Shown here: positions 3-35,682 of the stretch, piece by piece | How positions within the stretch are numbered: position 1 is the first letter of the stretch | How the letters are laid out: the number at the start of each line of letters is the position of its first letter | IMG/VR virus record: IMGVR_UViG_3300036846_001033 | Coordinates: 1 to 38,214 of that record | Length of the DNA stretch: 38,214 bases | Strand: one strand, 5' to 3' | From: a virus | Position numbers and translations under genes: made by a program | The notes under the pieces: model-generated | Databases searched by the model: none | What the model was told of the DNA's origin: nothing | What the model saw: the letters and a program-made list of their open reading frames with translations, nothing else

Positions 3-620
3 ACGCAGTTCGCCCCGTCGACGAGGAACTATGCGACGCCGCCGTATGTGCTCCCCCCTCCCGGCAATCCGCAGATACTGGCGGCAGCGCCAGGGCCGCA
101 GCAAGGCCCGCCGCCGCCGCCCCAGGTCCAGAAATACGCGCAGTATGCGACGTTGCCCGACAGCACGATGACGCGCGCCGGGGTGCCGCTGGGGGTGCTG
201 CGCGACCTCGTCATCGGCAACGAAAGCCGCAGCACGGCGCAGGCCCGCGGGGTCGAGCCTTATGATGTGCTGGCGATCGGCCCGGGGGTCGAGCACAACG
301 CCCGGGCGCTACCAGTCAACGCGCAGGGCTTCCCCGACCGCGCCCCGGTGAAAAGCGCCTGGGGCAATCCCAGCAAAGGGAGCGGCGCCTATCAGTTTGA
401 ACAGGAGACCTACGAGGACGTCGCCAAGGTGCTCGGCATCAAGGATTTTTCGAAGGCCTCGCAGGACGCCGTCTTCAACTACATCGCGACGACCGCCTAT
501 GGCGGAAAATCGGGTGTCTTTCCCTGGGAGAAAAACACCAAGTTCATGCCGGCCCTGAGGGCGGCACAGCAGCAATACGGCCGGACGCGGGTCGCGCAAG
601 CCATCTGGGGGGATCGCTAG
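3..620 (+). CDS. Phage tail/virion lysozyme, GH104 (lambda R)-like, 5' partial
   Basis: The reading frame is open to the left edge, so the gene begins outside the window; a GTG at 48 is an internal possibility but the frame upstream still looks coding. After a proline-rich linker (roughly residues 15-40) comes a domain that resembles the lambda endolysin lytic transglycosylase. It has a candidate catalytic Glu in GNES, the GAYQF segment (lambda GRYQ), and DFSKASQDAVFNYIA, matching the DFSPKSQDAVALQQI stretch of lambda R. Such domains cleave murein glycan strands. The stop TAG directly abuts the next ATG, placing it in the virion operon, so a tail-associated lysozyme for DNA entry is more likely than a lysis endolysin. 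Family call by remembered motifs only. Confidence 0.75.
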   Translation, partial: TQFAPSTRNYATPPYVLPPPGNPQILAAAPGPQQGPPPPPQVQKYAQYATLPDSTMTRAGVPLGVLRDLVIGNESRSTAQARGVEPYDVLAIGPGVEHNARALPVNAQGFPDRAPVKSAWGNPSKGSGAYQFEQETYEDVAKVLGIKDFSKASQDAVFNYIATTAYGGKSGVFPWEKNTKFMPALRAAQQQYGRTRVAQAIWGDR

Positions 621-10300: not shown

Positions 10301-11613
10301 GCGCGACACCAAAGGAGGCGGCGCAAACAGCCGCCTTTGCCTCACGCGAATCAACGGTCGACTTTGCCCGGCGCGGCTCGGCGATGCGCTCGGCAAATAT
10401 GATCACAGCATTCTTTAACGCCAACCTTCAGGGCGTCGACCGGCTGGGGCGGGCCTTTCACGATAATCCGACGGGGACGAGTCTCAGAATTGCCGCTGGT
10501 ATCACCCTGCCATCAATCGCACTCTGGGCGCTCAACCACGACAACCCCGATTATCAGGAACTGCCTGCCTGGCAGCGCGACCTCTTCTGGATTGTCCCGG
10601 TCGGCAGCGCCCCCCCCTCGCCCCTGCATATCGCCCAAGCGCAGCAGCGCGGTGTTGCCCCGACGCCGAGCGCACGGTTCTTTATGCGTATCCCGAAGCC
10701 GTTTGAGCCGGGCGTTACGTTCGGTTCAGGCGTGGAACGCCTGTTGGACGCCTATTACGACGGTAAACCAGACGCCTTTAACGGGTTTGCCAGTTCGGTC
10801 ATTGGGGCGCTTTTGCCGGGCATCATCCCCACTTTCGCATTGCCATCGGTCGAGCAATTTGCCAACCGCAGTTCCTTTACGGATCGCACCCTGATCCCGG
10901 CAGACGTAGAAAAGCAGCTGCCCGAGTATCGATATCAACCCTACACCACCGAGACCGCCAAAAAGCTTGGCTCGCTGATCGCCGCCTTCCCCGGGATCCG
11001 CGAGCTCGGCGTCAGCAATGAGCCGGGTTCCGGGGTTGCCCGCGCGCTGCAGACACCGATCCTTCAGGAAAACTACTTACGGGCCTGGACCGGCGGGTTG
11101 GGCAATTATGCCCTCCAGGTCGTTGATGCGGGTTTGCGCAAAGCCGGCGTTGTCCCCGACCCGCCAAAACCCGAGGACACCCTAGCTGACATCCCGTTTG
11201 TAAAAGCCTTTGTCGTCCGCTATCCGAGCGCCGGCACGGAATCGATCCAGGGTTTCTATGACGAGTATGAGAGCAACAAGCAGTTCTACGATACCTGGCA
11301 GGCAAAGGCGCAGGAGGGCGACGCGACGGCTATGCTGCGCATCCAGAACGTCGGCGGGCCGCGCATGTTCCTCCAGTTCGACAGCATGAAACAGGCTCTC
11401 GGAGAGCAGGCAAAGCTGGTGCGTGACATCTGGAAGGATCCGAGCATGGATCCGCACGAGAAGCGGCAGCTGATCGATCAGATTTATTTTAACGAGATCC
11501 AGATCGCCAAGGCCGGGTTGACGGCGATGCGGTCCGCCGAGGCGCAATTAAACGCGCCGACGGCCCGCCCGAACTTGAGTGACTTTGCTCACGAGAATCG
11601 GCCGCGGCATTAA
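7363..11613 (+). CDS. Large internal virion / polyvalent protein, gp16-like
   Basis: The last and largest virion gene, 1416 residues, close to T7 gp16 (1318). The N-terminus has two copies of an AGFSNDEI unit (residues 12-41), typical of phage polyvalent proteins. Residues about 265-510 are charged and coiled-coil-like. A long helical body follows, with LSPDFMLRNPIRDFFTAMI and SANMITAFFNANLQGVDRLGRAF, resembling the large polyvalent-protein-associated domain LPD38. No lytic transglycosylase domain is obvious, in contrast to T7 gp16; the separate GH104-like gene may supply that activity. It likely lines the ejection channel with the gp14/gp15-like proteins. Its stop overlaps the convergent gene by four bases. 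Confidence 0.8.
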   Translation: MPAGATGELQTAGFSNDEIAAWATKQRQELTGAGFSNDEIDNFLGGPKPTMPPAFLDRIARATDINTVIGATLKGAKEGFGTPQAMSPETEQFWRDIGIFNDPQKGQASPIRSFNESIIRPLGAAVNVVGAAINAGVTGIGAGVEQAAEQTGVPQPQRLGEETVNFLNFLGAQAMSGTPFMRPSRGPMGEIHELPIGGLPERGDFADAGKATVGTINPEIEAKIRALWDVNGIHPAEVAHDAHSDVTITQDLASTGETPPKHYVDPVEPAPAPEVHDLARQLEPELFENWQNLTERGNALRTQLDQLQTLQRQRTTPEITDLDRQINEKRAERLEAPRADQAGLANDVIALERQRTALVDQLPPVGTDTPAMAAARKELQDIDYQRRDIAPDVSATYRRAEAEMPPPPTAEPDASFTMEAPTEPPAAAAAAPTEPAAMSLEEQSALINDQIGRLKDRLDETTNEGEKETLRNEIALQQANVERIEERIKKEAEPAITTSGEVAPEGQTAPVPADKEEPDPFASKEAGAIRNPFARQPPRSTTPEGQAMLDRLSIGESDRGRPWTWSRIYSVTIDRLHALSTTTNFLRGQSVLSAGENPYTLARLYAGVSGKANQWLNHATYDFDTYANTGKSLREILAPVNDDLNGFREYASALRALELESQGIKTGFDLGAARTVAAAGHVQYAPIMADIVEYQNKLIAYLRDSGVISDASYNAMTSQHLLYVPFQRVFGDAAGDLIPQTMKGTGTTLQASDPIHHIVGSERRVIDPLESMIRNTYLSIMMAERNAVGTKLIDLINRAGGMPVPGRADTISIFRNGVKETHRVDEALAAAIKGLDEEAANSLIRLLGVPARVLRAGATLSPDFMLRNPIRDFFTAMINTTKGVFSPIDTAKGLLSAIHKDADFQEWLKGGGANAALVSLDRRYLQQNLADLTKETGLMTRAWNVVRHPIDSLRAFSELSEQATRLGEFKSAREQALAAGATPKEAAQTAAFASRESTVDFARRGSAMRSANMITAFFNANLQGVDRLGRAFHDNPTGTSLRIAAGITLPSIALWALNHDNPDYQELPAWQRDLFWIVPVGSAPPSPLHIAQAQQRGVAPTPSARFFMRIPKPFEPGVTFGSGVERLLDAYYDGKPDAFNGFASSVIGALLPGIIPTFALPSVEQFANRSSFTDRTLIPADVEKQLPEYRYQPYTTETAKKLGSLIAAFPGIRELGVSNEPGSGVARALQTPILQENYLRAWTGGLGNYALQVVDAGLRKAGVVPDPPKPEDTLADIPFVKAFVVRYPSAGTESIQGFYDEYESNKQFYDTWQAKAQEGDATAMLRIQNVGGPRMFLQFDSMKQALGEQAKLVRDIWKDPSMDPHEKRQLIDQIYFNEIQIAKAGLTAMRSAEAQLNAPTARPNLSDFAHENRPRH
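7399..7483 (+). repeat. In-gene direct repeat, two identical 22-base copies 63 bases apart
   Basis: An identical 22-base stretch occurs at 7399-7420 and 7462-7483, both reading GFSNDEI in frame, in a 21-codon period. The surrounding residues (LQTAGF / LTGAGF) are also alike, so this is a tandem duplication of one small motif at the N-terminus of the gp16-like protein. Confidence 0.9.
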
Positions 11614-11837: not shown

Positions 11838-12063
11838 GCTGAAACTCCGACGGGACGGTCATCCTCCCGTAATACGGAGACTGGCCAAACATACCGTCCT
11901 CAAATCCCCGGTGTTCAGCCTGAGTTTTGTTGTCGTAATACTCAGCCATATCCTTGGCAAACTGAGAACCGGCATCCTCGTTCGGCGCCAGCAGCTGCGC
12001 TGACGCCACGCCGGGCAGCAGCAGGGCGGCCAGCGCGGCCGCCGTCAACAAGGTGCTACGCAT
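11788..12063 (-). CDS. Small exported protein with Sec-type signal peptide
   Basis: 91 residues. The first 23 form a classic signal peptide: basic MRS, hydrophobic LLTAAALAALLLPG, and a VASA-Q cleavage site. The mature part is acidic and aromatic with YYDN, GQSPYYGR and HDYNQGYGDG. A good GGAGGG ribosome binding site lies upstream of the ATG. It is a candidate periplasmic phage protein (spanin-like or superinfection exclusion), but no lipobox Cys is present and there is no recognisable family. Confidence 0.65.
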   Translation of the reverse strand: MRSTLLTAAALAALLLPGVASAQLLAPNEDAGSQFAKDMAEYYDNKTQAEHRGFEDGMFGQSPYYGRMTVPSEFQHDYNQGYGDGAKLHVR

Positions 12064-15950: not shown

Positions 15951-16306
15951 GATCCTCCTCCGAATAGCGGCAGGCGTGCGGTGCGCGGGTCGATGCGGCG
16001 GCGCGGCCGCAGCGCGGGATGCGCCGGGTCGTTCGCCTCGGCCCAGCGCAGATGGTTGAGCCGGTAGGTGTACTCGGCCTCGGTGATCTCCTGTGCATGC
16101 TTCCAATGCCCCCGTTTCCAGAAGAACCGCTCGGTCAGCTCCTCCGGCGGCACCACCTCGCCGGCGATATCGACGACGATTGTGGTCGGCGGCCAGCGGT
16201 CGCGCTTGTTCTCGGGCTCACCCCACTCGAAGTCGATCTCCTGCAGCCGCGCCGGGACCAGCGGGCCGCCTCGCTGGAGGCGCAGGAGGTAGTAGCGGGC
16301 GGTCAT
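15947..16306 (-). CDS. Unknown 119-residue protein
   Basis: ATG 16306 overlaps the stop of the XRE regulator gene (ATGA), and its own stop overlaps the next start, which settles the frame. The product is rich in Arg, Trp and Pro, with YYLLRLQRGGPLVPARL at the start and HWKHAQEITEAEYTYRLNHLRWAE in the middle. The long upstream extension of this frame has shadow-like composition and is not included. No domain recognised. Confidence 0.65.
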   Translation of the reverse strand: MTARYYLLRLQRGGPLVPARLQEIDFEWGEPENKRDRWPPTTIVVDIAGEVVPPEELTERFFWKRGHWKHAQEITEAEYTYRLNHLRWAEANDPAHPALRPRRRIDPRTARLPLFGGGS

Positions 16307-16626
16307 GACCAGATGTCCTCGACCTCGCACCCCAGCGCCTGGCAGATGTCGCACAGCATTTCCGGCACGGGATGCTTGATCTGCCCCCTTTCCAAATCGC
16401 TGACACGATCGTGTGCATAGCCAGCGTTTCGAGCCAGGACCCGTTGCGACCATCCTTTGCTTTTGCGCAGCGCCCGCAGGCGCACCCCGGCTGCTCGTAG
16501 AGGGTCTATCGACATGACCGGTGTGTAGGGCGCAGAGGTGCCGCCCATCACCATCGCGAGGTCTTTGCGGAAGTTCAGCCGGATCGAGCGCCACGGTTCG
16601 GGAACGTCGGCCAGGTCGTCGCTCAT
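16303..16626 (-). CDS. XRE/Cro-CI family transcriptional regulator
   Basis: 107 residues with a clear helix-turn-helix of the XRE type in the C-terminal half: LRALRKSKGWSQRVLARNAGYAHDRVSDLERGQIKHP, then PEMLCDICQALGCEVEDIW. About 38 residues precede it; a second start at an internal ATG (MSIDPLRAAG) would give the bare domain. It is the second gene of the operon that starts at 16868, next to attP, so it may control this operon or integration. It is distinct from the main immunity repressor at 24285-24884. Confidence 0.85.
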   Translation of the reverse strand: MSDDLADVPEPWRSIRLNFRKDLAMVMGGTSAPYTPVMSIDPLRAAGVRLRALRKSKGWSQRVLARNAGYAHDRVSDLERGQIKHPVPEMLCDICQALGCEVEDIWS

Positions 16627-16868: not shown

Positions 16869-16964
16869 CAGAGAACAAACCCGGCCCGCGAGGGAGAGAA
16901 CAGTGTGGCATTTTGTGTGTCACTTTTACCGGAAATGTGCCACATTGTTCCCGATTCGAGCCTC

Positions 16965-16992
16965 TTGCGGAGGTTCGGAAATAGGGTATAAC
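16965..16992 (+). promoter_or_regulatory. Promoter aimed at the attP tRNA half
   Basis: TTGCGG (16965-16970), a 16-base spacer and TATAAC (16987-16992) point toward the tRNA segment that starts 19 bases further on. The -10 sits in the perfect dyad AGGGT-ATA-ACCCT (16983-16995). After integration this phage-borne promoter would drive the reconstituted host tRNA. Confidence 0.55.
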
Positions 16993-17011
16993 CCTTTGAT
17001 ATCACAGGTAA

Positions 17012-17050
17012 CGGGGCGTGGCGCAGTCCGGTAGCGCACCTGCTTTGGGA
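17012..17050 (+). other. tRNA-Pro(UGG) 5' half, attP identity segment
   Basis: The segment can be folded as the first 39 bases of a tRNA-Pro: acceptor strand CGGGGCG, D-arm GCGC-loop-GCGC, anticodon 5' stem CCTGC and loop TTTGGGA with anticodon TGG at 17046-17048. Similarity stops there: the 3' anticodon stem (GCAGG expected), T-arm and acceptor 3' strand are absent. It is therefore a truncated tRNA, expected to be identical to the bacterial attB. Confidence 0.85.
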
Positions 17051-17154
17051 ACCCCCGGCCTGCATATCCAACCTCCTTGAAACTATTGGCCTATTTCGCC
17101 TTACCTCAAAAAGTGTGGCAGTTTTTGTGGCATTCGCGCGGCGCGCCCCGCGGT

Positions 17155-17412
17155 TCACGGCTTTCCGAAGTATTCCCAGACGTAGATGACACGGCCCAAA
17201 TCGTCGACGATTTCGCCGTCGTCGCGGACAAAGTTGGCGACCCGCCAATCCTCGAGGCCGGGAACCCCGCAGGCGACAAAAACGACCGAGTCCTTGTCGA
17301 CCGCCTCGACCGATACGGTGAAGATGCCCTGGTCCGGGGGAGAGACGACAACGATGGTGCCGGGCTTGAGGTCGCCGGCCTTGAGGGGGACACCGATCTC
17401 GCTCTTGGTCAT
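17155..17412 (-). CDS. Small beta-rich protein next to the integrase
   Basis: 85 residues starting at ATG 17412, overlapping the integrase stop (ATGA). The sequence MTKSEIGVPLKAGDLKPGT then IVVVSPPDQGIFTVSVEAV looks like a small SH3/KOW-like beta barrel; the rest is acidic (VRDDGEIVDDLG). The longer frame upstream is an integrase shadow. It is the last gene before attP. Function unknown; a recombination directionality or integrase accessory role is only suggested by position. Confidence 0.6.
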   Translation of the reverse strand: MTKSEIGVPLKAGDLKPGTIVVVSPPDQGIFTVSVEAVDKDSVVFVACGVPGLEDWRVANFVRDDGEIVDDLGRVIYVWEYFGKP

Positions 17413-18542
17413 GCCACCACCCTCGCCTTGCGCCCGACCCTGGCCGCCGCGGTCTTCTCCATCGCCGCGCGGACATCGGCGACCTCGATCGCGGTGTAGC
17501 GCATCGTCGTCGCGATATCGGCGTGCCCGAGAAGCTTCTGCACGATCTTCAAATTCCCCACCGCCACCAGCGTCCGGGTCGCCGCGGTGTGGCGCAGGTC
17601 GTGGAACCGCAGCCCGGGCAACCCGGCTTCGCACCGGGCGCGGTCCCACTCCCGCCGCCAGCCATCGTGGCTAAAGGGATAGCGCTCGCCCTTCTCCTGC
17701 ATGATGCCGGTATGCGGGTCGTGGCGGTTGCGGGCGCAGACATAGGTAAAGACCATCTCGGGGTGGTTGCCGCGCTCGCGGGCGAGGACGGCGCGCACCG
17801 CATCGGTCAGCGGCACGACATGCAGCGCGCCCCCCGGTTTCTTTGACTTGGTCCTAAAGGTGATCCGCCCCTCGTCTTCGTCCCAGTCGATCTGCCGCCA
17901 TGTCAAACCCAGGACGTTTTCAAGGCGCACCCCGGTCAACAGGGCAAACTCGACGATCGGCCAGAAATCAGGACGCAGGCATTGAAAGAACCGCTCCTCA
18001 TCGGCGTCGGAGAGGATCAGCTGCACCTTGTCGGGTTCGGGGAGCCATAGCGTCTTCCAGTGGATCTCCGGCACCCGCGCCCCCCAACTCCGCGCCGCCA
18101 GCAGCACCGTGCGCAGATGCCCGACTTCCCGATTCACCGTGGCGTTGGCCCGTTGCTTGGTGATGACCTTGCCATAGCGTTTGGTCTTCACCTGGCGGCG
18201 GCGGGCGACAAAGCTCGAGAGATCCATGGTCGTCAGGTCGCTGATAATGGTCCGCTCGCCGAGCTCCTTGATGAGGGTCGCCGAGTGCTGCGCGATCATC
18301 GCCGCCGAGGCCACCGCCGACCCGCGGTCCTCCCAGTACTTGCCCAGCGCATCCGACAGCGACCACTCGGCCCGCCGGGCGCCGCGCCTCAGCTTTTCCT
18401 CGGTGTAGACGCGGAGGGCGATCTCTTCCGCCTTGGCACGGGATTCTTCCTTAGTGCTGTCGCGAAATCGACGACCGTTGATCTGGAAGTCAAGAAACCA
18501 GTACGGCGACCCGGCGCGCCGGATGACGAGTGACTTGCGCAT
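17409..18542 (-). CDS. int: Tyrosine-type phage integrase
   Basis: 377 residues with the full tyrosine recombinase set: Arg206 (LLTGVRLENVLGLTW), a Lys in the TKSKKPGG turn (about 232-235), His314 and Arg317 (FHDLRHTAATR), His340 (LGHADI) and the nucleophile Tyr349 (MRYTAIEV). The N-terminal 60 residues form a small arm-binding-type domain, then a SAM-like core-binding domain. AGGAG precedes ATG 18542. The gene lies next to attP, and its catalytic motifs show no damage. It should integrate the phage into a tRNA-Pro gene and, with an excisionase, excise it. Confidence 0.95.
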   Translation of the reverse strand: MRKSLVIRRAGSPYWFLDFQINGRRFRDSTKEESRAKAEEIALRVYTEEKLRRGARRAEWSLSDALGKYWEDRGSAVASAAMIAQHSATLIKELGERTIISDLTTMDLSSFVARRRQVKTKRYGKVITKQRANATVNREVGHLRTVLLAARSWGARVPEIHWKTLWLPEPDKVQLILSDADEERFFQCLRPDFWPIVEFALLTGVRLENVLGLTWRQIDWDEDEGRITFRTKSKKPGGALHVVPLTDAVRAVLARERGNHPEMVFTYVCARNRHDPHTGIMQEKGERYPFSHDGWRREWDRARCEAGLPGLRFHDLRHTAATRTLVAVGNLKIVQKLLGHADIATTMRYTAIEVADVRAAMEKTAAARVGRKARVVA

Positions 18543-21575: not shown

Positions 21576-22567
21576 GTTGGTCGATTTTCGGGCTGCTGCA
21601 TCGCCTCGCGTGAAGAGGCCGATCGGCTGGCATATACGTCTTCATCAGGTATGACAATTTCGGGGCGGCGCGCTCTAAACCGCGTGCCGGCCAAGGTGAC
21701 GCCAATCATTCCATTAAAGGCCGGACGCACAATCGACATTGTCTGATTTGTATAAGCGGCATTCCAGATTGTCGCCAAGCCGCGTATCCGAGTTGTCGGA
21801 GCCATGGAGAGTGCGCCGCCGGCGCGCAGCGCTAGGAAATTCACTGCAGCTTTGCGCGGATCATTGGCACCAAGTCCATCGTCATGAGCGACAGAAGTCC
21901 AAAACTCTGCTGCTTTATCCATGATTTTGGGGGAGTTTAGGAGCGCCAGAGCGATGGCGACCGTCGTGGTGAGGCGCAATGGTCGCGTCAGATAGCCAAC
22001 ACTATTGGCAATGCACTCGAGATAGAGTCCCATGGCGGCCCGCCAATCGCCCGTCTGATCGGCGAGATAGATAAGGTCGCGTATCGGAACCCGATTGGGG
22101 CCGACTCTCTCGGGCGGTCGGAAATCATTAAGTATCCAACGCAGGGCACCAGCCAGCAGCTCGGTATTTTTTGGTGTCAGTCCCAAGGTCTCGGGAAGAC
22201 CCAACCCGTTTAAAACATCAGCGGGTGTGCGCTGCAATTCGCGGCCAAAGGTGGCGTAGACGCGGCGCAATTCAGTAATGTCGCCAACTTGCCGGCGATG
22301 CACCAAAAACCAGATCGCACAACCGCTTTTAACGACGGCGCTTAAGCTGTGCTGACCATCGACAAGATGAGGAACCGCATCCAAGACCGCGAACTCGATA
22401 TGTGATCCTGGTCGGTAATGATCCTGAACCATGGCACGCGCCAGCAGGTCGACATGGACCGGGCGAATCCGGCGTTGATCAGTGTAATTGTGTTTGATTA
22501 ACCACTGTTCTGCCGTTTCGGGACTAACTGAAATAAGTTCCGTGATAATTGGGGGCTTCATCATCAT
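21569..22567 (-). CDS. ParB-like / DGQHR-type phage protein
   Basis: ATG 22567 (first of three ATGs) is supported by GAGGAG seven to eight bases upstream. The 332-residue protein begins with a helix (SPETAEQWLIKHNYTDQRRIRPVHVDLLARAM) and then HLVDGQHSLSAVVKSGCAIWFLVHR, the DGQHR motif region of ParB-like phage proteins; here Arg is replaced by Ser (DGQHS). The C-terminal two thirds is helical. It overlaps the second ParB-like gene by seven bases. Proteins of this type are widespread in phages and have no agreed role. Confidence 0.7.
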   Translation of the reverse strand: MMMKPPIITELISVSPETAEQWLIKHNYTDQRRIRPVHVDLLARAMVQDHYRPGSHIEFAVLDAVPHLVDGQHSLSAVVKSGCAIWFLVHRRQVGDITELRRVYATFGRELQRTPADVLNGLGLPETLGLTPKNTELLAGALRWILNDFRPPERVGPNRVPIRDLIYLADQTGDWRAAMGLYLECIANSVGYLTRPLRLTTTVAIALALLNSPKIMDKAAEFWTSVAHDDGLGANDPRKAAVNFLALRAGGALSMAPTTRIRGLATIWNAAYTNQTMSIVRPAFNGMIGVTLAGTRFRARRPEIVIPDEDVYASRSASSREAMQQPENRPTC

Positions 22568-34069: not shown

Positions 34070-34291
34070 ATGGCGAAGACCTATTACGGGCAGACCTCTG
34101 GCGGGACGCATCCCCCGACCGATGCGACCAAGCTGACATCGCCGCCGGCGTCAGGCCCGGTCAAGTGCCTGGTCTACAAAGGCCCGGCGTTTGGCAACCA
34201 GTGGGACTACTCGGGCGCGGTGAACGGCACGACGACATTCTTCATCGTCGACAACGGGCCGACGCTCGGGCGGCAGCGCAGCGCGACCTAA
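34070..34291 (+). CDS. Small late protein, stand-alone copy of a duplicated domain
   Basis: 73 residues with GAGGTGA ahead of ATG 34070. From SPPASGPVKCLV to GPTLGRQRSAT, 37 of 50 residues are identical to the C-terminus of the next protein. The domain is a compact beta pattern (KCLVYKGPAFGNQW, TTTFFIVDNGP). Position after the terminase suggests a virion decoration or head protein. No family recognised. Confidence 0.7.
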   Translation: MAKTYYGQTSGGTHPPTDATKLTSPPASGPVKCLVYKGPAFGNQWDYSGAVNGTTTFFIVDNGPTLGRQRSAT

Positions 34292-34295
34292 AGCG

Positions 34296-35075
34296 ATGGC
34301 GAACACCACTTGGTCAAGCACCGACAAAACCGCTGTCACATTAAGTGGAACCAACAACCTTACTGCAACCGCAACAGGATCGGGTGGCGTCCGGACGGCC
34401 GACTGGCATAACAGTGGCAAATATTACTTCGAATACACATGCCCTAACCTCGGAACATCAGGTCACGCCATTGGCATCGCAAACGCGAGCGCTGTCTTAA
34501 TCTCGGTTTACAATACCGGCGCTAACGCCGCTTATGTTTATAACCCAGGGACAATCTACATCAACGGCTCTAGCTCCGGTTCGACTTTAGGAAGTCGAGC
34601 GAACGGAGACATCATTGGAATAGCGCTCGACTGTAGCGCTAATCTCATTTGGTTCCGCGTTGCGCCGTCCGGAAACTGGAATGGTTCCGGCACTGCTAAC
34701 CCAGCTACTGGAGCGGGCGGCCTCAGCGTTGCCTCAATTGCTTCGTCCGGCCTCTATGGCCTTTTTTGTGCAAGTGGTCCCCCCCTTGCGGCGACTGCCA
34801 ACTTCGGCGATAGCGCATTTACCGGCGCGGTTCCGTCCGGCTTCACCGCAGGCTTTCCCGTCACCTCGTCCAGCGCAATCTACTACGGTCGCGACAACAG
34901 CTATGTAGATACCAGCCTCGTGTCTCCGCCCGCCTCCGGGCCAGTTACCTGTCTCATCGATATGGGCCCGACGTTCGGGAAGCAGTGGCAGTATTCCGGC
35001 GCGGTGAACGGCACGACCACTTTCTATTTCATCAACAGCGGGCCGAGCCTCGGCCGGCAGCGGAGTGCGACCTGA
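34296..35075 (+). CDS. SPRY-like domain fused to the duplicated late domain
   Basis: 259 residues. Residues about 1-195 look like a SPRY/B30.2-type beta sandwich: SGKYYFEYTCPNLGTSGHAIGI, GDIIGIALDCSANLIWFRV, NWNGSGTANPATGAGG, ATANFGDSAF and PSGFTAGF. Residues about 210-259 repeat the neighbour's domain (SPPASGPVTCLIDMGP to GPSLGRQRSAT). The SPRY stretch is clearly more AT-rich and uses less biased codons than the flanks. Inference: a horizontally gained recognition domain fused onto a copy of the neighbour gene, exposed on the virion and possibly binding host or surface ligands. Confidence 0.75.
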   Translation: MANTTWSSTDKTAVTLSGTNNLTATATGSGGVRTADWHNSGKYYFEYTCPNLGTSGHAIGIANASAVLISVYNTGANAAYVYNPGTIYINGSSSGSTLGSRANGDIIGIALDCSANLIWFRVAPSGNWNGSGTANPATGAGGLSVASIASSGLYGLFCASGPPLAATANFGDSAFTGAVPSGFTAGFPVTSSSAIYYGRDNSYVDTSLVSPPASGPVTCLIDMGPTFGKQWQYSGAVNGTTTFYFINSGPSLGRQRSAT

Positions 35076-35236
35076 TGGCAAAGTCGCATCCCGGGTTTAA
35101 GGCGGCGGCCTCTTCGATCGCCAAGCGTCAGGGGGTCTCCAAGGACCGTGCCGGGGCGATCCTCGCGGCTGGGGCGCGAGGCGCCAGCGCGGCGGCGAAG
35201 AAGGCCAATCCGCGCCTCAAGAGGGTCAAGGGATGA
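35075..35236 (+). CDS. Small basic phage protein (53 residues)
   Basis: ATG 35075 overlaps the upstream stop (TGATG). The product, MAKSHPGFKAAASSIAKRQ then GVSKDRAGAILAAGARGASAAAKKANPRLKRV, matches a frequent small phage protein. Basic and helical, perhaps DNA-binding or a minor head component. Too short for more. Confidence 0.75.
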   Translation: MAKSHPGFKAAASSIAKRQGVSKDRAGAILAAGARGASAAAKKANPRLKRVKG

Positions 35237-35682
35237 AAGCACTGTTCCTAGCAATTGCCCTGCTGCTGGTCACGACAGGCGACTCCCGGCCGCAGGCCTT
35301 GAGTGCCGTGACGGTGGGACCGTCATCGCCCAATGGCCCGGCCGTGGGCTTGGTGCCGCAGACCGGCATCGGCGCGGCCGCCGACACGCTGCTGACCGCG
35401 CCCGGCAATGTCTACAATGTCTATGCCGTCAACCGCACCGCGACGGCCGGGTTCATCATCATCTACAACGCCACCTCGTCGCCCGGCACCGGCGCGCTGA
35501 CCGCCAACCTGATCCTCGGCTGCGTGGCGCTGCCCGCATCATCCAGCGGCTACCTCAACTATGCGCCCGGCCCGCCGCTGCGGGCGTCGATCGGCGCGGT
35601 GGTGCTGATCACCAGCGCCGCCAACTGCGCCACCTACACCACGGGCGTCATCACCGCCGACATCTTTGGTTTAGCCCTATAG
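35233..35682 (+). CDS. Exported or structural protein with N-terminal signal peptide
   Basis: 149 residues. ATG 35233 overlaps the upstream stop (ATGA). The first 20 residues look like a Sec signal peptide (MKALFLAIALLLVTTGDSRPQ). The rest is beta-rich: SAVTVGPSSPNGPAVGLVPQTG, NVYNVYAVNRTATAGFIIIYNAT, and a C-terminal ANCATYTTGVITADIF. Related proteins in rhizobial phages are found in the late block; whether the signal is used or the hydrophobic N-terminus is structural is open. Confidence 0.7.
   Translation: MKALFLAIALLLVTTGDSRPQALSAVTVGPSSPNGPAVGLVPQTGIGAAADTLLTAPGNVYNVYAVNRTATAGFIIIYNATSSPGTGALTANLILGCVALPASSSGYLNYAPGPPLRASIGAVVLITSAANCATYTTGVITADIFGLAL

Follow-up and report, generated by a model that had tools for sequence, protein, structure and literature searches.

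The stretch of DNA analyzed here, hereafter the window (38,214 nucleotides; IMG/VR virus record IMGVR_UViG_3300036846_001033), carries at positions 17012 to 17050 of its plus strand a block of 39 nt that reads CGGGGCGTGGCGCAGTCCGGTAGCGCACCTGCTTTGGGA and corresponds to bases 1 to 39 of a tRNA-Pro(TGG) gene. The block comprises the 5' strand of the acceptor stem, the D arm, and the 5' strand of the anticodon stem with the loop, and it matches sphingomonad genes identified by ARAGORN as tRNA-Pro(TGG) at 36 of 39 bases (E = 3e-6). The half terminates precisely with the last base of the anticodon loop, where the stem strand CCTGC and the loop TTTGGGA are followed by ACCCC in place of GCAGG. ARAGORN detects no complete tRNA anywhere in the window, showing that the block is a true half, and no tRNA 3' half adjoins it, the match ending at base 39. 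These features confirm the original prediction that the phage carries the first 39 bases of a tRNA-Pro up to the anticodon loop, and they set the window apart from the usual type of integration at tRNA genes, in which attP holds the 3' part of the tRNA. Only one further viral contig contains the exact 40-mer from this site, and the exact tRNA sequence runs on into its 3' half at no locus.

A tyrosine integrase of 377 amino acids (17409 to 18542, minus strand; PF00589, E = 5.5e-28; phrog_1 integrase, E = 1.6e-53) is encoded convergently with the tRNA half, and its catalytic residues R206, H314, R317, H340, and Y349 are invariant in alignment A2. The distance between the half and the integrase gene is 358 nt, and it is far shorter in most relatives. 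A small open reading frame of 85 amino acids with no Pfam match (17155 to 17412, minus strand) occupies this interval, and a Cro/C1-type helix-turn-helix (HTH) regulator is encoded nearby (16303 to 16626, minus strand; PF13560, E = 3.9e-14).

The half is surrounded by short repeats of the kind expected for integrase arm-type sites. TGTGGCA or its complement TGCCACA occurs six times in the 38 kb, and four of these copies fall within a 230-nt interval (16904 to 17132; Poisson P of ∼3e-8, calculated from base composition), which bears out the earlier description of TGTGGCA arm-like repeats around the half. A 24-nt direct repeat, 83% identical between its two copies and with a spacing of 210 nt, brackets the half, with AACAGTGTGGCATTTTGTGTGTCA on the integrase-distal side (16899 to 16922, plus strand) and AAAAGTGTGGCAGTTTTTGTGGCA, which contains two TGTGGCA copies, on the integrase side (17109 to 17132, plus strand). 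An inverted copy, TGCCACATTGTTC (16938 to 16950, minus strand), is 92% complementary to positions 16898 to 16910. A shared-word test for arms gave values at the shuffle level for the window, so the assignment of the arms here rests on the clustered TGTGGCA copies. Upstream of the half, the promoter-like sequence that had been described is present as TTGCGG-N16-TATAAC (16965 to 16992, plus strand), with TTGCGG at 16965 to 16970, TATAAC at 16987 to 16992, and a spacer of 16 nt. The region of the −10 hexamer also coincides with a palindrome, AGGGT-ATA-ACCCT (16983 to 16995).

At least 18 related integrases lie beside a 5' half of tRNA-Pro that is placed as in the window. They are encoded in the circular genomes of Rhizobium phage RHph_I3_18 (43 kb) and Sphingopyxis phage VSN-002 (41.8 kb) and in IMG/VR contigs L055, L058, L059, L060, L061, L064, G267, G270, G278, G284, G293, and G298, among others. 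In these phages and contigs, the integrases have roughly 30 to 56% identity and the D arm of the half lies 20 to 51 nt past the integrase stop codon, always in one orientation. L081 and L092 are more distant, and their halves have diverged; in the Rhizobium-type elements, the tRNA-Pro isoacceptor is GGG. Nine further related integrases (L037, L038, L073, L075, L079, L080, L086, L087, and L094), including those of a phage region in a Sphingomonas plasmid and of Synechococcus phage Ssp-JY40, are instead followed directly by a 5' half from tRNA-Val(TAC), placed and oriented like the tRNA-Pro halves. The integrase of VSN-002 (L035, 2477 to 3595; MZ127829.1) is annotated as a telomere resolvase, and its sequence and attP are those of this tyrosine integrase clade.

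In every relative, across three tRNAs, the tRNA match extends at least to the last base of the anticodon loop, and it stops exactly at the loop end in the window, L027, L055, L060, RHph_I3_18, and pSK06. Since the match never falls short of the loop end, the 7-nt loop is the probable overlap region for strand exchange, which in the window would be TTTGGGA at 17044 to 17050 (plus strand). A 7-nt overlap in the anticodon loop is usual for tyrosine integrases that act at tRNA genes (PMC8371274). The block from 17012 to 17050 thus runs from the first base of the tRNA up to the predicted crossover, as would an attP identity block. The original prediction placed the crossover within the half, and the block shared among relatives, which spans tRNA bases 1 to ∼39 to 45, agrees with it and argues against a crossover outside the half.

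A tree of 69 integrases, built by a quick method, places the window in a clade of 31 rows (SH-aLRT, 94), in which 25 of the 31 carry 5' halves, 16 of them from tRNA-Pro and 9 from tRNA-Val; 2 carry 3' halves, and 4 could not be assigned to either type. The two exceptions, L063 (11090 to 11138) and G282 (10632 to 10680 and 22165 to 22241), involve tRNA-Pro that is turned round relative to the integrase gene, and the position of the shared block, on the integrase-distal side of the crossover, is thereby unchanged. A simple reading is that this lineage may capture whatever is integrase-distal, which would yield a 5' half and a promoter where the tRNA points toward the integrase gene. As judged from the sequences compared, capture of the 5' half is the rule in this one integrase lineage, whose known hosts are alphaproteobacteria.

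The only close relative of the window is L027, a contig of 51.9 kb with an integrase 96% identical to that of the window. The half is identical in both (39/39), whereas the flanks match at 180 of 212 positions (Fisher P = 0.007), and the three flanking zones show 82.7, 85.0, and 87.3% identity. This difference indicates constraint on the tRNA half within the phage. The two sequences align on both sides of the half, upstream in pieces out to window position 12004. The hexamers in L027 are TTACGG and CGTAAG, and the promoter region, at 85%, is no better conserved than the other flanks. At the −10 region, L027 reads AGGGC-GTAA-GCCCT, so that the dyad is kept and the hexamer is lost.

Neither a prophage of the window phage itself nor its host with an empty attB was found. 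A scan of genome contigs with the single sequence retrieved only distant integrases, and searches guided by kinship reached no genome with a close one. Integrated relatives support the proposal that insertion occurs at tRNA-Pro, since both junctions are seen in G272, attR is seen in G263, and what looks like attL is seen in pSK06. G272 (IMG/VR 3300034072_001363; 39,968 bp) contains both junctions in one contig, with a complete tRNA-Pro at 209 to 285 (minus strand; Rfam, 69.7 bits) and, at 39861 to 39901 (minus strand), an orphan 5' half identical over 41 bases, which lies 39.6 kb from the complete gene and directly after the integrase gene (38765 to 39790, plus strand). The element is thus bracketed by a full tRNA and an upstream 5' fragment. 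The sequences upstream of the tRNA at the two ends are unrelated. Upstream of the complete tRNA lies phage DNA with the arm repeat CGGGACTATTCCGGGACTC, which is also found beside the integrase gene, and with the motif TTGCCT-N16-CTAAGG ending 12 nt ahead of the tRNA. The G263 provirus has the same attR, with a complete tRNA-Pro at 392 to 468 at one end and the integrase gene at the other (46589 to 47635), and its IMG number (2643221744) suggests an isolate genome. In Rhizobium leguminosarum pSK06 (L034, NZ_CP022570.1), the integrase gene is followed by an orphan tRNA-Pro half and then by genes for a HAD hydrolase and cellulose synthesis, which look chromosomal; this sequence is therefore probably an attL within a misassembled “plasmid.”

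The orphan half of G272 is preceded by 67 nt of available sequence, which is host-side and looks like the 3'-terminal part of a second tRNA-like gene, with GGTTCGAATCC ahead of an acceptor end (the tmRNA match of 16 bits is below the family threshold). No promoter motif is present in the 32-nt spacer that follows. A tRNA-like 3' end and a motif-free spacer suggest that tRNA-Pro was formerly part of a longer transcript in this host and that the phage probably provided its own promoter. The host genes beside attR of G272 have no family match.

In both pSK06 and G272, the half next to the integrase gene has host DNA upstream, which raises the question of whether the window might itself be a prophage junction (attL), with a promoter and half that belong to the host rather than to the phage. 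Such an origin is very improbable and is largely refuted by the arm repeats on both sides of the window half, by the match of the upstream DNA to phage L027, and by the tail and regulator genes on the upstream side. The interval from 17012 to 17050 is, with high confidence, predicted to be the core of a phage attP, whose integration would join the phage half and the motif upstream of it to the host 3' half.

The integrated copies also bear on whether the half might function as RNA in the free phage, either as a 5' tRNA-half decoy or as an antisense leader over the integrase gene, with a secondary role as attP. In the circular phage, a transcript starting at the motif would enter the integrase gene in antisense, and no terminator-like site was seen between 16840 and 17480. 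An RNA function of this kind is nevertheless considered highly improbable, because the match always extends to the end of the anticodon loop beside the integrase gene for three different tRNAs and because integrated copies have the half as their junction.

If the half is an attP core, as favored here, the sequence upstream of it becomes the candidate promoter of the rebuilt tRNA. The motif TTG[ACT]NN-N15..17-[CG]TA[AGT]NN was searched within 60 nt of the half in 20 phage-side sequences and was found in 16 of them, against a mean of 0.33 and a maximum of 3 in dinucleotide shuffles, counts that overstate independence because the sequences are related to one another and were inspected before the motif was defined. 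The corresponding controls gave 0 of 59 windows further upstream and 0 of 20 on the opposite strand. Among the 20, contigs L055, L060, and G293 terminate near the half, and their upstream DNA could be host. The distance from motif to tRNA is mostly 11 to 12 or 18 to 20 nt, and the motif also precedes the native tRNA-Pro genes of L053 and G282, at a distance of 12 nt. A TTGC...CTAAGG motif, also found at host tRNA-Pro genes, scored above shuffles, and for most relatives a consensus of Caulobacter type did not do so.

It is accordingly worth weighing that the half is a genuine attP core behind a motif that does not work as a promoter, with transcription supplied by read-through from phage genes or by a promoter of unrecognized type. 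The strict motif is missing in L027, RHph_I3_18, L081, and G284, and a generic Escherichia coli-type σ70 scan of the window does not call a promoter. The recurrence of the motif and its spacing, as at the native tRNA-Pro genes, speak against this, and for read-through, no plus-strand source gene was identified in the window, where the integrase and HTH genes point the other way. A nonworking motif is thus regarded as unlikely. With the motif absent from 4 of 20 elements and possibly host-side in 3 of 20, TTGCGG-N16-TATAAC is best described as the putative active promoter of the rebuilt tRNA. The original prediction that the phage replaces both the host promoter and the 5' half hence stands as to the DNA, since phage DNA lies upstream of the rebuilt tRNA of G272, and its part on promoter activity is retained as a conjecture from the recurrent motif.

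According to the favored mechanism, strand exchange by the integrase would take place within the anticodon loop of the tRNA-Pro(TGG) gene of the host. The host 3' half would become continuous with the phage half and the promoter-like sequence ahead of it, so that a complete tRNA-Pro would stand at the prophage end far from the integrase gene and would be transcribed from phage-borne DNA. Beside the integrase gene, the displaced 5' half of the host gene would remain as a dead fragment, together with the promoter (or upstream operon) that had served it. The window phage presumably behaves like its relatives in this respect. A broader proposal, put forward tentatively, is that this phage clade of alphaproteobacteria systematically swaps the promoter of an essential tRNA, such that tRNA-Pro or tRNA-Val in a lysogen might come under phage control, uncoupled from the host operon.

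Insertion through a 5' half is a known minority type, as indicated by the portions of the literature considered on the Islander islands, Sinorhizobium meliloti, and the element of Zhao and Williams. The original statement that carriage of the 3' part predominates among tRNA-targeting phages agrees with Islander, where 3760 of 3919 islands have a 3' fragment and 159 a 5' fragment (PMC4383910). Zhao and Williams (2002) described an element with a displaced 5' tDNA fragment, as summarized in PMC6563490, and such islands, in the accounts cited, share with the present elements a full tRNA at one end, a displaced 5' fragment upstream, a tyrosine integrase, and crossover in the anticodon loop. Islander provides counts only, whereas here a single integrase clade, two tRNAs (tRNA-Pro and tRNA-Val), and a recurrent promoter motif are involved. 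In S. meliloti, attR lies at the 5' end of a tRNA gene in 9 of 88 phage-related sequences (PMC11476347). These cases resemble the present ones in their alphaproteobacterial hosts, 5' end, and intact tRNA, but the word “promoter” is absent from that text, and the passages considered do not tie the cases to this integrase clade.

Other systems are related more loosely. In archaeal pTN3-like elements, attB is likewise a 5' half and element DNA drives transcription of the rebuilt tRNA, in that case through the integrase promoter with attP inside the integrase gene, whereas here the integrase gene is intact, convergent, and 358 nt from the core, with a separate tRNA-type promoter motif (PMC8371274). 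Phage phiLM21 inserts at tRNA-Pro(GGG) and has a related integrase (32.6% identity) and the same tRNA family, but the part of the tRNA that it carries is the 3' half, and the host promoter stays where it was (PMC12429752). In tRNA-dependent lysogeny, a tyrosine integrase also acts at a tRNA gene and the phage supplies what integration breaks; there, the core is ∼10 bp and does not rebuild the gene, and a whole phage tRNA of matching isotype is provided (PMC10865867), whereas the window has a 39-nt core that would rebuild the gene and no tRNA gene of its own.

The present comparison adds a phage integrase clade with the 5' half as its rule and two tRNA families as targets. It also adds a single contig that shows the two junctions, and a promoter motif of tRNA type that recurs in the phage-side sequences. 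According to a 2021 review, very few bacterial tRNA genes lose their original promoter when they are rebuilt after integration (PMC8371274), and for this integrase clade, the exception would be the rule. These phages offer a clean natural system in which to ask whether prophages alter how much of an essential tRNA is made or how it is regulated, and for what reason certain integrases take the 5' side. A full tRNA with phage DNA upstream, together with a 5' fragment beside the integrase gene, also provides a route to host assignment. In the G286 provirus, an integrase gene interrupted by TGA is followed by a complete and codirectional tRNA-Pro (34214 to 34290 and 34589 to 35680).
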